Source of the DNA: a virus
DNA length: 22,983 nt
Direction: 5' to 3' (one strand)
IMG/VR virus record: IMGVR_UViG_3300042289_000269
Coordinates: 1 to 22,983 of that record
The notes below the pieces were generated by a model. That model was not told the origin of the DNA and did no database searches. It saw nothing but the letters and a program-made list of their open reading frames with translations. The position numbers and the translations under genes are program-made. Positions 3,511 through 11,528 of this stretch are shown here, in pieces (within the stretch, counting starts at the first letter, position 1; every line of letters starts with the position of its first letter).

Positions 3511-3816
3511 ATGCCAAGTCCATCAGTATACGAATTAAGCTCTAAAAATGGTAGTGATGCAGTACTTTCCGCTGCTAATGGAACATTTATTTTGAACACT
3601 ACAACAACTTATTCAGGTAATGTAAAAGCTGTTGTATTATTAGAGGATACAATTATTAACTCACTTAAACATGTTGGGGATGTAGCAGAGCAAAAGACTG
3701 CCTACATTGGCAATTCAGCAATTGCATTGAAAGCAGGTACTATCATAACACCTGCTAATCAAAACATCTTTGATACAGTTAAGTTAACAAGTGGATCTGC
3801 TATATTAGTACTATGA
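3511..3816 (+). CDS. small putative virion protein
   Basis: This encodes 101 residues with no recognised domain. It is rich in Ser, Thr, Ala, Asn, Val and Ile with short beta strands (for example GTFILNTTTTYSGNVKAVVL) and a hydrophobic C terminus (SAILVL). Composition resembles small beta-sandwich decoration or tail-tip proteins. ATG 3511 follows a 44-nt gap with a -7 promoter element. The stop overlaps the next start as ATGA, so the two are probably translated together. The function is unknown; a chaperone-like or attachment role for the DUF1566 protein that follows is only an inference from position. Confidence 0.7.
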   Translation: MPSPSVYELSSKNGSDAVLSAANGTFILNTTTTYSGNVKAVVLLEDTIINSLKHVGDVAEQKTAYIGNSAIALKAGTIITPANQNIFDTVKLTSGSAILVL

Positions 3817-4430
3817 TAAGTGCATTGAACTTCAAGATAGGTGGTGGTGGTTCGTCCACCCCTGCTCCTGTTGGTGCAACCTTAATGAAAACAGGTCAAA
3901 CAACATCATACAGAACAGGTGATGATGGTGACATTGAAGCAGGGAGAGCAACATCATTCACAGTCTTAGCAAGTAATAATCCATTTGGTAACACGAATAG
4001 ATTTACTGATACATTGGGAGGCACAGCATATGCCAATAATATTGTACTTGACTGGAGTACGTATAATGGTACTACGGTTTTAGGGTGGCATAGATTAGCC
4101 ATGCCTACCGTTGGAACTTACACATGGAACCAAGCTATTGACAATGCTTTGACTTTTACAAATGGATCTTTCACTACGGGTTGGAAGTTAGCAAATATTG
4201 CTGAATATTTTAGCTTATTTAATTGGGCAAACACGCCAGCAAATAAATTGAATTATGCACCTTTTACTTTGATTGGTGACTTTTGGAGTAGTACAACTAC
4301 AGATGGGTCAGTAAACGCATATTATGTTGTAAATTCAACTACCTTACATATTTTCACAACAGGTAAAACTGCAGGCATAAAAGCATTATTTAATAGAACG
4401 TTTACAGTAACAGGAACAACTTTATCTTAA
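3813..4430 (+). CDS. DUF1566 (Lcl C-terminal) domain protein, candidate tail adhesin
   Basis: This encodes 205 residues. A glycine/serine/proline linker (about residues 10-20) separates a short N terminus from a DUF1566-type domain. Visible landmarks are TGQTTSYRTGDDGD (27-40), W105 and the following helix (NQAIDNAL), GWKLANIAEYFSLFNW (123-138) in place of the usual WRLPTxxEL, FWSST (157-161), and the closing FNRTFTV where the family has VRPV. The domain is known from Legionella collagen-like adhesins and from many phage and surface proteins of Bacteroidota. Its position before the lysis genes fits a receptor-binding tip. It starts by ATGA overlap with the gene upstream. The family call is fairly firm; the receptor role is inferred. 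Confidence 0.75.
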   Translation: MISALNFKIGGGGSSTPAPVGATLMKTGQTTSYRTGDDGDIEAGRATSFTVLASNNPFGNTNRFTDTLGGTAYANNIVLDWSTYNGTTVLGWHRLAMPTVGTYTWNQAIDNALTFTNGSFTTGWKLANIAEYFSLFNWANTPANKLNYAPFTLIGDFWSSTTTDGSVNAYYVVNSTTLHIFTTGKTAGIKALFNRTFTVTGTTLS

Positions 4431-8246: not shown

Positions 8247-8331
8247 GGAGGCAAAAATGGCACTGCTATTATTTAGCACAGGGATAATTATGATTATAAT
8301 AGGACTGATTAAAAAACATAAAAATGACTGA
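8239..8331 (+). CDS. 30-residue single-span membrane protein
   Basis: ATG 8239 to TGA 8329-8331 encodes MAEEAKMALLLFSTGIIMII followed by IGLIKKHKND. It has an acidic N terminus, one membrane helix (about residues 7-24) and a basic tail (KKHK), so the C terminus is probably cytoplasmic. It overlaps both neighbours by 8 nt. Unusually for this genome it has a near-perfect Shine-Dalgarno sequence, AGGAGGT (8227-8233), 5 nt before the ATG, although the same bases also encode the end of the upstream protein. Function is unknown. Confidence 0.6.
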   Translation: MAEEAKMALLLFSTGIIMIIIGLIKKHKND

Positions 8332-8704
8332 CATAATACAATACATTGAGGATAATGACCTCAAAGCAAGGCATAGATATAGACACTACACTTACAAACG
8401 TTTCTATCTGTACAACCTACTTAGAGAGGAAGGATTGACACTCTATGAAATAGCAGCCATGTTCAACAGAGACCATGCAAGTGTGATACATGGACTTAAG
8501 ACTCATCATGATCTAATCTCAATCAAAGATAAAATATACCTGGAATATATTGAGGAGCTCATGTTGATATTTGAGAATTATAATGAAGATCATGACCTGG
8601 TTGATGATATTATGAACTGTTTTTGTTTGAAACAATTGAGAAAAATTAAATTTAGAATTAAGAATAATCTCTACAAAGATTTAACTTTGGAGTTGCATAC
8701 TTGA
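8324..8704 (+). CDS. free-standing DnaA domain IV-like DNA-binding protein
   Basis: This encodes 126 residues. Residues about 20-70 match the DnaA C-terminal DNA-binding domain: YKRFYLYNLLREEG, then the helix-turn-helix LTLYEIAAMFNRDHASVIHG, where RDHASVIHGLK (49-59) corresponds to the DnaA signature that reads DnaA boxes. The AAA+ ATPase domain is absent. The remainder is a charged helical tail (DHDLVDDIMNCF, then basic). It is the last gene before the terminator and the non-coding origin candidate, so it may bind there, or act on host DnaA boxes. The domain assignment is good; the target is inferred. Confidence 0.8.
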   Translation: MTDIIQYIEDNDLKARHRYRHYTYKRFYLYNLLREEGLTLYEIAAMFNRDHASVIHGLKTHHDLISIKDKIYLEYIEELMLIFENYNEDHDLVDDIMNCFCLKQLRKIKFRIKNNLYKDLTLELHT

Positions 8705-8725
8705 TTTTTTAAATTATTACTCTCG

Positions 8726-8762
8726 AAATCCCCTTTGCAAACGAGCTTAGGGGATTTTTTTT
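8726..8762 (+). terminator. rho-independent terminator after the accessory gene run
   Basis: AAATCCCCT (8726-8734) pairs with AGGGGATTT (8749-8757) and is followed by a T-run to 8762. The 14-nt loop contains CGAG (8742-8745), complementary to CTCG (8722-8725) just upstream of the stem, giving a possible pseudoknot or antiterminator pairing. Confidence 0.85.
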
Positions 8763-9022
8763 GTGCTATCAATTTTTAACTATCATTGAAAATCAGACAG
8801 TTAGCATCAGAACAAAAGTACAATTGAAACCCCTATATATATAGTATATATTTTACTATATTTTTTTTTTATTATTATATATACTTTTTTAATCAATCAT
8901 TTTTTTTTGTAGGTTTTTTTGAGCTGAATTTTTTTGTTTTTTTGTGCTATTTACAGTTAAGTAATTGATAATAAATAATTTAATCAGTACAAACTCAGTA
9001 CAAATAAAAATATTTTAGAACA
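8763..9022 (+). other. non-coding AT-rich region, candidate replication origin
   Basis: No credible gene lies here. Features seen: a perfect palindrome CTATATATATAG (8833-8844) within a TA-alternating stretch; four T-tracts of 7-9 bases each ending in G (8900-8909, 8914-8921, 8929-8936, 8937-8944); the direct repeat TTTTTTTGTGCTAT (8756-8769 and 8937-8950); and TCAGTACAAA iteron-like repeats. An easily melted region with short repeats, between a DnaA-domain gene and the primase-helicase gene, is the classical arrangement of a phage origin. No canonical DnaA box (TTATCCACA) was found. The origin assignment is inference. Confidence 0.45.
8984..9004 (+). repeat. iteron-like repeat pair TCAGTACAAA
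   Basis: Two identical 10-mers (8984-8993 and 8995-9004) recur with 11-bp spacing, one helical turn apart, so a bound protein would meet both on the same face. A third copy with one mismatch (TCAGAACAAA) lies at 8807-8816. Candidate binding site for the phage DnaA-like or primase-helicase protein. Confidence 0.5.
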
Positions 9023-9056
9023 TTTGGAGTACATATTAAAATAATAGTTATATTTG
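9023..9056 (+). promoter_or_regulatory. Bacteroidota-type promoter (TTTG-N22-TATATTTG) for the replication operon
   Basis: TTTG at 9023-9026 and TATATTTG at 9049-9056 match the -33 and -7 elements, with spacing at the long end of the accepted range. Transcription would begin near 9062, immediately at the start of the structured leader, so the leader (9061-9161) would be the 5' untranslated region of the primase-helicase mRNA. Confidence 0.65.
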
Positions 9057-9060
9057 TGAA

Positions 9061-9152
9061 CGGTTCGCTCTCACGAAATAGAACTAAAAGACGTTATTAA
9101 ACCTCTTAATGAATTTGGATGTGAGAGCCCAAAGGAGTTAAGGGGTTTTTTT
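9061..9152 (+). promoter_or_regulatory. pseudoknot/attenuator-like leader RNA before the primase-helicase gene
   Basis: GCTCTCAC (9067-9074) is perfectly complementary to GTGAGAGC (9121-9128). AAACCTCTTAA (9099-9109) pairs with TTAAGGGGTTT (9138-9148) over 11 bp with one G-U, and a T-run follows to 9152, which makes the second stem an intrinsic terminator. The first helix pairs an upstream segment with the terminator's loop, so the helices interleave: they either compete or form an H-type pseudoknot. The upstream segment can also form a small hairpin TTCG/CGAA (9064-9077) that presents CTCTCA in its loop. The T-run ends 9 nt before ATG 9162. Conditional termination of the replication operon is inferred; ligand, protein or antisense control is unknown. 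Confidence 0.6.
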
Positions 9153-9161
9153 ATCACTATT

Positions 9162-11528
9162 ATGAAGGTATCATTTTTTAAACAAGTAAGGGACACTGCA
9201 CCAAAACTAAATAAAGATGTTGGTCATTTCTTAGATCGTATCAAGGATGGAGCATCAAAGGAATTGGTTGAAAAGATTAGGAACACCGAGGATGAGGATG
9301 AGCAAAAGTTTTTAAAGGTCCAACTCCCAGTTGTTTGCTTTAATGGTCAGTTCAATACCAGGTCAAAGAGTGGATTAAAGAAATCATCCGGTTTAATGGT
9401 ATTGGATTTTGATGATCTGAGCTCACTTGATGAGGCAAAGGAGTTAAAAAAGAATATTAAGTCAGATATACATGTGTTCTCTGCATGGATATCACCTCGT
9501 AATGGAGTGAAGGTACTTTATAGAATACCACCTGTTGCCAATGATAATGAGTTCAAAAATATATTCAAGTCCATCAAGGAAAAATATCCAAACTTAGATC
9601 CATCTGGAAGTGATGTGTCCAGGGCTTGTTTTGAATCTTATGATCCATTGATATATGTTAACTTAGAGGCAGAGGTTTATACTCCAACTATTCAGATAAT
9701 AGACATAGAGCCAATTGAGATAGGTGATGTGACTAATATACCAATCAATGATCAAGATGTTATTGCTAATAAGTTAGTGATATGGTTCCAAAAACACTAT
9801 GATAGGACCAACAGAAATAACTCAGTGTTTAAATTAGCAGCTGCATTCAATGACTTTGGAGTGAACAAACAAACTGCCATGGTATATTGCTCAAGATATG
9901 CAGAGGCTGGCTTTCCTGTTGCTGAAATAACAAACATTGTTAACTCTGCTTACAAACATACTGCACAATTTAGTAGTAAATTCTTTGAGGATAAGCCACG
10001 AAAAAAGAAACTAATGGCCATGGTCATGAGTGGCAAAAAAGAGAAGGATATACAACAGCAATTCTCTGACATTGACATTGAAAAACTTAATAATGAGATT
10101 AACATCATAAGAGAAACTACCAAAATCAATGAGTTTTGGGAGTACAGCTCAGATGGTAAATTGCAAATCAACTCATTCAAAATGAAATTGTATCTGCAGT
10201 CATTGAACTATTATAAATATTATCCAGTTGGAAATGATAAGACATTTGTATTCATATCAAAGGCAGAAAATTTCCTTGAGGAGGTGAACGAATATAAGAT
10301 AAAAGATCATGTGATTAGAAACCTTGAGGCAGCCAATGAGATTGATGTGTTTAACCTTTGTGCAAATAGAACAAAGCTATTCACAACACCTTATCTATCA
10401 ATGATTGATACTGCTCATGTTGACTTTTTAAAGGATGAGAAGGATTTTGCTATGATATATTATCAGAATAATGCTGTTAAAGTCTATCAAGATAAGTATG
10501 AGATATATGATTATGATGAGCTTGATTTCTATATTTGGAAGGATCAAGTTATTAAAAGAGATTTCATTACAGAGGACCATCATGAGAGCATGTTCAGAAC
10601 ATTCCTATGGTTAATCTCAGGTCAAGAGGTGGAGAGATACAACAGCATGAAGTCAGTTATCGGATACATGTTGCACTCTTATAAAACTAATGCAAACAAC
10701 AAGGCAATTATCTTGAATGATGAGGTTATTTCTGACAATCCAAATGGGGGTAGTGGTAAAGGATTACTGACAAATGCCATTAGTCAAATGAAAAAAGTAT
10801 CTACTATTGATGGTAAGACCTTTGATTTTAACAAATCATTCCCTTATCAGACTGTTTCAACTGATTGTCAAGTCCTGGCATTTGATGATGTTAAGAAAAA
10901 TTTTGATTTTGAGAAACTTTTTAGCATAATTACAGAGGGAATTACCATTGAGTACAAAGGTAAGGATGCTGTCAAGCTCCCAGTTAAGGACTCACCAAAG
11001 GTATTGATTTCAACTAACTACACAATCCGGGCAGAGGGTGGATCATTCACTCGCAGAATGTTTGAAGTGGAACTATCAAGCTACTTTGGAGCTCATAGAT
11101 CACCACTTGATGAGTTCAACTGTATGTTGTTTGATGATTGGGATACAGATGAGTGGGCCCGATTTGACCATTTTATGATTAACTGCATTCAATACTATCT
11201 TGAGCATGGATTGGTGGCCTATGAACATAAAAACTTAAAGATTAGAAAGCTAATTAACCAAACATCTAAGGAGTTCATTGATTGGATGGATGATAAAAAG
11301 TTCACTCCTGGACAACAGATAAACTATAAGCAATGGTTTGAAACATTTGTAAGTGAATATGAGGACTTTAAAAAGTGGCTGACTAATAGAAATTTCAACT
11401 CATGGATAAGAGCTTATTTTGAATTTAAGAAAATTGAGATTGATAATGTATCAAGCAATGGTCAAAGATACTATGAGATAAAATCTGACATCTTAAACAC
11501 TAAAAAAGATGAGGACCTTCCATTCTAA
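9162..11528 (+). CDS. VirE_N/BT4734-type primase fused to SF3 (D5-like) helicase
   Basis: This encodes 788 residues, the replication initiator. Residues about 50-170 are a VirE N-terminal/BT4734-type domain, with FNGQFNTR (60-67), DFDD (82-85), SPRNGVKVLYRI (111-122) and SGSDVSRACF (148-157). The acidic DFDD resembles the first catalytic motif of archaeo-eukaryotic-type primases. A PriCT-like helical segment follows (about 200-270). The C-terminal helicase has Walker A GGSGKG (529-534, K533), Walker B FDD (574-576), sensor Asn N619 in ISTN, and a likely arginine finger at FTRR. It should unwind and prime DNA at the adjacent origin candidate. The protein ends DEDLPF, like a bacterial SSB tip. 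Its last 20 nt overlap the next gene. Confidence 0.9.
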   Translation: MKVSFFKQVRDTAPKLNKDVGHFLDRIKDGASKELVEKIRNTEDEDEQKFLKVQLPVVCFNGQFNTRSKSGLKKSSGLMVLDFDDLSSLDEAKELKKNIKSDIHVFSAWISPRNGVKVLYRIPPVANDNEFKNIFKSIKEKYPNLDPSGSDVSRACFESYDPLIYVNLEAEVYTPTIQIIDIEPIEIGDVTNIPINDQDVIANKLVIWFQKHYDRTNRNNSVFKLAAAFNDFGVNKQTAMVYCSRYAEAGFPVAEITNIVNSAYKHTAQFSSKFFEDKPRKKKLMAMVMSGKKEKDIQQQFSDIDIEKLNNEINIIRETTKINEFWEYSSDGKLQINSFKMKLYLQSLNYYKYYPVGNDKTFVFISKAENFLEEVNEYKIKDHVIRNLEAANEIDVFNLCANRTKLFTTPYLSMIDTAHVDFLKDEKDFAMIYYQNNAVKVYQDKYEIYDYDELDFYIWKDQVIKRDFITEDHHESMFRTFLWLISGQEVERYNSMKSVIGYMLHSYKTNANNKAIILNDEVISDNPNGGSGKGLLTNAISQMKKVSTIDGKTFDFNKSFPYQTVSTDCQVLAFDDVKKNFDFEKLFSIITEGITIEYKGKDAVKLPVKDSPKVLISTNYTIRAEGGSFTRRMFEVELSSYFGAHRSPLDEFNCMLFDDWDTDEWARFDHFMINCIQYYLEHGLVAYEHKNLKIRKLINQTSKEFIDWMDDKKFTPGQQINYKQWFETFVSEYEDFKKWLTNRNFNSWIRAYFEFKKIEIDNVSSNGQRYYEIKSDILNTKKDEDLPF

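Follow-up and report, generated by a model that had tools for sequence, protein, structure and literature searches.

A covarying kissing-loop leader RNA with a built-in terminator precedes replication genes in Bacteroidota phages and is a putative transcription attenuator

The window, that is, the whole 22,983-nucleotide stretch of viral DNA analyzed here (positions 1 to 22,983 of IMG/VR record IMGVR_UViG_3300042289_000269), carries between positions 9061 and 9161 a leader that directly precedes a primase-helicase gene and contains or adjoins the following features:

9023-9056, plus strand: Bacteroidota-type promoter recognized from the sequence (TTTG at 9023-9026, TATATTTG at 9049-9056)
9062-9085, plus strand: 5' hairpin H1 (stem 9062-9066/9081-9085, 14-nt loop holding the 5' arm; minimum-free-energy [MFE] fold)
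9067-9074, plus strand: 5' kissing arm GCUCUCAC, whose partner is 9121-9128
9086-9098, plus strand: single-stranded linker AAAAGACGUUAUU
9099-9148, plus strand: terminator hairpin (stem 9099-9109/9138-9148; MFE fold)
9110-9113 and 9134-9137, plus strand: internal loop of the terminator (UGAA/GGAG)
9114-9118 and 9129-9133, plus strand: apical stem of the terminator (5 bp, UUUGG/CCAAA; MFE fold)
9121-9128, plus strand: 3' kissing arm GUGAGAGC, within the apical loop of the terminator
9146-9152, plus strand: intrinsic-terminator U-tract (7 T, of which the three at the 5' end also belong to the stem; conserved in the family)
9162-11528, plus strand: first gene of the operon, a 788-amino-acid BT4734-like_N/VirE-type primase-helicase (Pfam and PHROG matches)

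The 5' arm GCTCTCAC (9067-9074) and GTGAGAGC (9121-9128) are exact reverse complements of each other, and the resulting 8-bp helix interleaves with an 11-bp terminator stem (including one U-G) formed by AAACCTCTTAA (9099-9109) and TTAAGGGGTTT (9138-9148) and followed by the T-run. Both helices had been proposed in the original prediction, and both are present at these coordinates and covary in relatives. The stem of H1 (GGUUC/GAACU, 9062-9066 with 9081-9085) is also the MFE fold, in which both arms lie in loops; because the terminator loop contains the further 5-bp hairpin UUUGG/CCAAA, the pairing is best described as loop to loop (kissing), as had been suggested. A smaller TTCG/CGAA hairpin, in whose loop the upstream arm had been placed, is possible in the window and is not conserved (relatives show CAAT, CAAA, CACT or CATT at the CGAA position). 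Folding of the window leader as a single sequence gave a weak signal (z = -1.5), and comparison between relatives was decisive instead. Among these, conservation is strong in the linker (13 to 16 nt in 90 members; consensus AAAGANGUUAUU) and in the UGAA/GGAU internal loop.

The TAnnTTTG and TTTG elements correspond to the published Bacteroidota promoter consensus (PMC7366714, PMC2483708), and TAnnTTTG lies 3 to 6 nt 5' of H1 in 81 of 85 relatives. The position of TATATTTG would set the transcription start near the 5' end of H1, in agreement with the start that had been predicted. An inverted repeat resembling a terminator (8726-8734/8749-8757) closes the preceding transcription unit, and reliance of the primase operon on the leader promoter is therefore probable. 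The first open reading frame of this operon starts with ATG at 9162, and the product matches PF08800 (4.2e-18), phrog_28855 (4.2e-153) and phrog_18375, DNA primase/helicase (3.8e-29); in each of the 39 leaders examined, an ATG-started frame began no more than 45 nt from the U-tract. Upstream of the leader, 8324-8704 (plus strand) encodes a 126-amino-acid product that has the DnaA domain IV-like motif RDHASVIHG and a Pfam Bac_DnaA_C match that falls short of the curated cutoff (E = 1.9e-6), possibly a DnaA-box binder or replication initiator; many of these phages have a DnaA-domain-IV-like gene 5' of the leader. The intergenic region 8705-9060 is very AT-rich (GC of ∼0.20 around 8800 to 9000) and contains TCAGTACAAA at 8984, at 8995 and imperfectly at 8807, plus a 27-nt repeat; located just 5' of the leader, it looks like a candidate replication origin.

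To recover relatives, the primase protein was used as a query, which returned 17 loci, and two pattern scans that left the arm sequences unconstrained then added many more. Upstream of the primase in these relatives the arms vary and yet remain complementary (GCUCUCAC, GAUCUGAC, GGUCUGAC, GCUCUGAC, CGUCUCAC), also where the leader has diverged (arm ACGACCAA). The covariance model was built from the nested helices only, so the kissing helix was never fitted. In 31 close members 98.4% of cells were paired and compensatory double changes occurred at 17 of 28 pairs; in an alignment of 89 distinct members the corresponding values were 98.1% and 26 of 28, with a covariation score of 0.686 (shuffled: 0.206; slid: ≤0.108). 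The observed covariation was reached by none of 500 shuffles for either alignment. Every helix contributed in the 89-member alignment (compensatory changes at 5/5 pairs of the H1 stem, 10/10 counted pairs of the terminator stem and 5/5 of the apical stem), including the kissing helix, with double changes at 6 of 8 pairs and 98.4% of cells paired. The 8-nt arms fall into 23 sequence types, nearly always complementary and nearly strictly Watson-Crick: G-U accounts for 0.7% of pairs in the kissing helix versus 12.8% in the terminator stem. The covariance search across phage relatives that had been proposed as a check therefore returned strong covariation, and on the lack of covariation, named in advance among the grounds for rejection, the result speaks strongly for the structure. 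On this comparative evidence we consider the pseudoknot with its conserved kissing pairing to be real, and an apparently undescribed regulatory RNA.

The family survey covered viral sequences. At 80 loci anchored by the helicase protein alone, without the RNA pattern, 50 leader matches were obtained at E<1e-6, mostly ∼600 to 900 bp upstream of the helicase, and a search of 26 whole phage records gave one strong class I match each in 25, further matches being marginal. A descriptor combining TAnnTTTG, an upstream hairpin and a terminator stem whose apical-loop segment is exactly complementary to the hairpin loop was matched 273 times in 2.98 Mb versus 0 times in first-order Markov shuffles; these are not 273 independent elements, as many loci overlap and a few are visibly nonmembers. 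A pattern scan of viral contigs identified seven true members with 9-nt 5' arms, and the descriptor exposed a compact class II with arms of 6 to 8 nt (for example GAGCAG/CUGCUC, GGGCAG/CUGCCC, AGGCAG/CUGCCU and GUUACGG/CCGUAAC), in which the kissing and terminator helices covary; part of this alignment has a misaligned 5' stem. Several phages combine a class I with a class II leader, and the arms of the two are unrelated. The second leader often lies 5' of a gene starting (M)EIWKDVIGYEGLYQVSN that resembles HNH/NUMOD4 endonucleases, and the corresponding gene in cultured phages is annotated as an endonuclease with PF07463. At six loci (L080, L300, L326, L349, L368 and L397) a class II leader lies directly 5' of a free-standing HNH-type endonuclease gene, which suggests that a promoter-attenuator cassette may belong to homing endonucleases themselves.

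Cultured members were located by the covariance model together with position, and later by the descriptor; BLASTN of the consensus leader against cultured phages had returned only weak, short and probably chance matches. Leaders precede the primase or helicase operon in Flavobacterium phages of the hemulen/lillamy group (arms GUGAGACG/CGUCUCAC), in morran (GUGAGAAG/CUUCUCAC), in snusmum and mumin (GUGGAACG/CGUUCCAC) and in Cellulophaga phi19:1 (GUACGAC/GUCGUAC), and a replication initiator plus primase in the cultured Flavobacterium phage elemo (GUGGAGG/CCUCCAC). Hemulen, morran, mumin and elemo are virulent. No leader was found near the primase of Leef_1, Panino, phi38:1 or BT-TP2. Phages of the mumin group were isolated as virulent and lack lysogeny genes (PMC7077304), and a search for Phage_integrase (PF00589) had no matches in 20 metagenomic phage records of unstated completeness; for these two reasons the phages appear virulent, and the lack of integrases weakens a role for the leader in lysogenic immunity.

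The leader had been described as belonging to a primase-helicase operon. This holds for the VirE-type operon of the window and is too narrow for the family, members of which also precede a module of DnaD-like helicase loader and helicase, as well as the HNH-type endonuclease genes. Mean column identity of the leader is 85%, while the primase of other phages falls to 34 to 35% identity, and in others again the VirE primase module is replaced by the loader and helicase behind the same leader. As the first gene of the operon diverges or is exchanged, the leader is evidently not tuned to any single gene product. One relative (L023:6728-9100, compared with 9162-11528 of the window) carries an N-terminal Prim-Pol domain instead of BT4734-like_N; outside this domain the two proteins align, and the leader is retained. 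Two primase genes (L007 and L218) follow strongly diverged leaders (ACGACCAA/UUGGUCGU), and because the L007 primase is 91% identical to that of the window, leaders may have been swapped between phages by recombination.

With a promoter followed first by an intrinsic terminator and next by the start codon of a downstream gene, the element has the general anatomy of an attenuator, and we regard it as probably a cis-acting transcription-attenuation leader RNA in which the kissing pseudoknot sets read-through. Transcription would start at the TATATTTG promoter and H1 would be made first, its loop presenting the 8-nt arm. As polymerase advances, the apical loop of the terminator would expose the complementary arm, and the loops could kiss before the terminator 3' arm exists; the terminator stem next to the U-tract would then close, releasing an RNA of ∼90 nt, or fail to close, letting polymerase enter the replication operon. 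Pairing of the arms can precede termination in folding predictions, since the best nested fold of a window transcript ending before the terminator 3' arm pairs both arms. In the predicted fold at full length the terminator is included in 98% of members (predicted median energies of -12.3 kcal/mol for the arm duplex and -16.6 kcal/mol for the terminator hairpin). Read-through would be variable and regulated, we infer, with its level set by the kissing helix. All covarying helices occupy separate nucleotides and are conserved together, for which reason we slightly favor a kissing helix that is part of the terminated state. It is nearly as likely that pairing of the loops at an early stage puts strain on the terminator or slows its formation. 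General RNA geometry suggests that, in an in-line stack of H1, kissing helix, apical stem and terminator, the linker would span ∼32 bp (∼90 Å), near its reach, so that kissing would need a bent terminator or would resist closing of the terminator base.

By eye, no conserved, mutually exclusive antiterminator was recognized, and any switch must therefore rely on tertiary structure, on kinetics, or on a protein or a further RNA. One candidate antiterminator, the linker paired with the 5' arm of the terminator, was rejected as missing in many members, as judged by eye. A leader peptide reading AUGAAUUUG... was likewise set aside, as the frame appeared unconserved by eye and stops after four codons in L018 and L266. 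What favors attenuation is the covariation of every helix, including the kissing and terminator helices of class II, together with the scarcity of G-U in the kissing helix, the promoter before H1 and the close start codon. The retention of the leader where the primase diverges or is replaced, the matches at helicase-anchored loci, the descriptor matches not seen in shuffled sequence, and the folding predictions for the shortened window transcript and for full-length leaders point the same way. On the other side, an identical layout would suit a small RNA that always terminates, the operon then being read from elsewhere.

Control by a protein is best seen as a subcase of the attenuator model. 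A phage or host protein binding the pseudoknot at the linker or internal loop could govern termination, by antitermination or autoregulation, and the conservation of just these unpaired segments and the frequent DnaA-domain-IV-like gene upstream are consistent with it. However, no single protein family was recognized beside all leaders and the first operon gene is exchangeable, and we consider such a switch rather unlikely.

Similarly doubtful is an action in trans, in which loops of the terminated ∼90-nt RNA would pair with nascent leaders of sibling or superinfecting phages and alter their termination, matching arms defining compatibility groups. The near-strict pairing within 23 arm types and the changes of type between close relatives suggest specificity: arms differ among near-identical phages of the window group, among hemulen, morran and mumin, which were all obtained on one pair of Flavobacterium strains, and between two leaders of one genome. 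An antisense RNA from the leader of P4 terminates transcription of its replication genes (PMC4825925). Against this, pairing of the arms in cis would mask them, the phages look virulent, and on the helicase tree kissing pairs show 13.75 changes per pair versus 11.8, 16.6 and 15.4 for the other helices. Since the rate of change in the kissing pairs does not exceed that in the other helices, diversifying selection on the arms is not established; faster evolution of the arms than of every other part was unsupported overall on this tree, an excess of change being limited to moderately close relatives. Arm type shows almost no dependence on phylogeny (42 switches on 61 leaves versus 47.7 with shuffled labels). 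A second target of the arm was sought in the analyzed phage sequence and none beyond expectation was found (2 occurrences versus 4.7 expected), so only another leader copy could be the trans target, and action on such copies is possible. The suggestion that the leader is the target of a separate antisense transcript was unsupported, as a consensus test detected no conserved antisense promoter motif (7/83 downstream versus 10/85 in a control stretch). Taken to its limit, this line of thought has virulent Bacteroidota phages carrying an RNA self/non-self system, in which the leader of each early unit is identified by its kissing-loop type and a resident leader RNA holds back the replication operon of any incoming phage whose arms match, while phages with other arms are spared; we offer this as a speculation of low probability.

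It is also quite unlikely that the element is a stand-alone phage small RNA with targets in host or phage, reached via the linker or internal loop, and that the operon receives only leaky read-through. Its own promoter and terminator, the mutual compatibility of all helices and the conserved linker and UGAA/GGAU loop agree with a small RNA. The start codon close behind the U-tract in all leaders examined speaks against it, and unrelated arms before HNH-type genes versus replication operons better suit a leader than an RNA with a single target.

Among known systems, Rfam gave no leader match at gathering threshold in the window or in four further loci (L102, L349, L150 and L403), and none at E<10 for the window leader alone, including c4 (RF01695) and the riboswitch classes, which agrees with the earlier impression that no known riboswitch class is present. 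Close parallels include P4 CI and P1/P7 C4 (RF01695), phage antisense immunity RNAs in which complementary segments lie in one transcript with premature termination as the outcome; in P4 a leader-derived antisense RNA causes termination ahead of the replication genes (PMC4825925). Our leader resembles these in its complementary segments, its predicted attenuation and, as in P4, its short RNA ahead of replication genes. It differs in that the 5' arm pairs in cis with the apical loop of the terminator itself, in lacking the Rfam match and in belonging to apparently virulent phages without integrases (20 records), unlike those of the P4 CI type. Plasmid antisense attenuators of the pT181 type are also close, and in pT181 the controlled gene is a replication gene. 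In this type a kissing-hairpin interaction controls terminator formation, and loop changes can diversify specificity (PMC3753616). Kissing hairpins and a terminator are common to both (predicted from sequence here), but the pT181 partner is a separate antisense RNA, whereas here both loops reside in one sense transcript. Riboswitch and other attenuator leaders likewise place a promoter, a structured RNA and an intrinsic terminator, in this order, before a gene, and differ in that here no conserved antiterminator is recognized, the arms vary with no fixed ligand pocket and Rfam has no match. HK022 put and the Bacillales EAR (epsC motif) are antitermination RNAs with structured RNA near the 5' end of the transcript; like them, the leader is a structured 5' RNA that may act on elongating polymerase, but its structure includes the terminator itself and has no match in Rfam. 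We file it as a variant of attenuator leaders outside the C4/CI family.

No description of this leader RNA in Bacteroidota phages was found in the open-access literature, and few phage regulatory RNAs have been described in this phylum. The family adds a widespread structured RNA of >100 distinct sequences, including members in cultured plaque-forming phages, and in it a tertiary contact between two loops lies within a terminator, where transcription would enter the phage replication genes. Phages that grow on the same laboratory hosts supply natural compensatory variants and so allow a direct test of the mechanism, and the leader modules may serve as orthogonal transcription attenuators.

Elsewhere in the window, 3813-4430 (plus strand) encodes a protein that contains Lcl_C (PF07603, 3.7e-9); this domain is frequent in variable receptor-binding or diversity-generating proteins.
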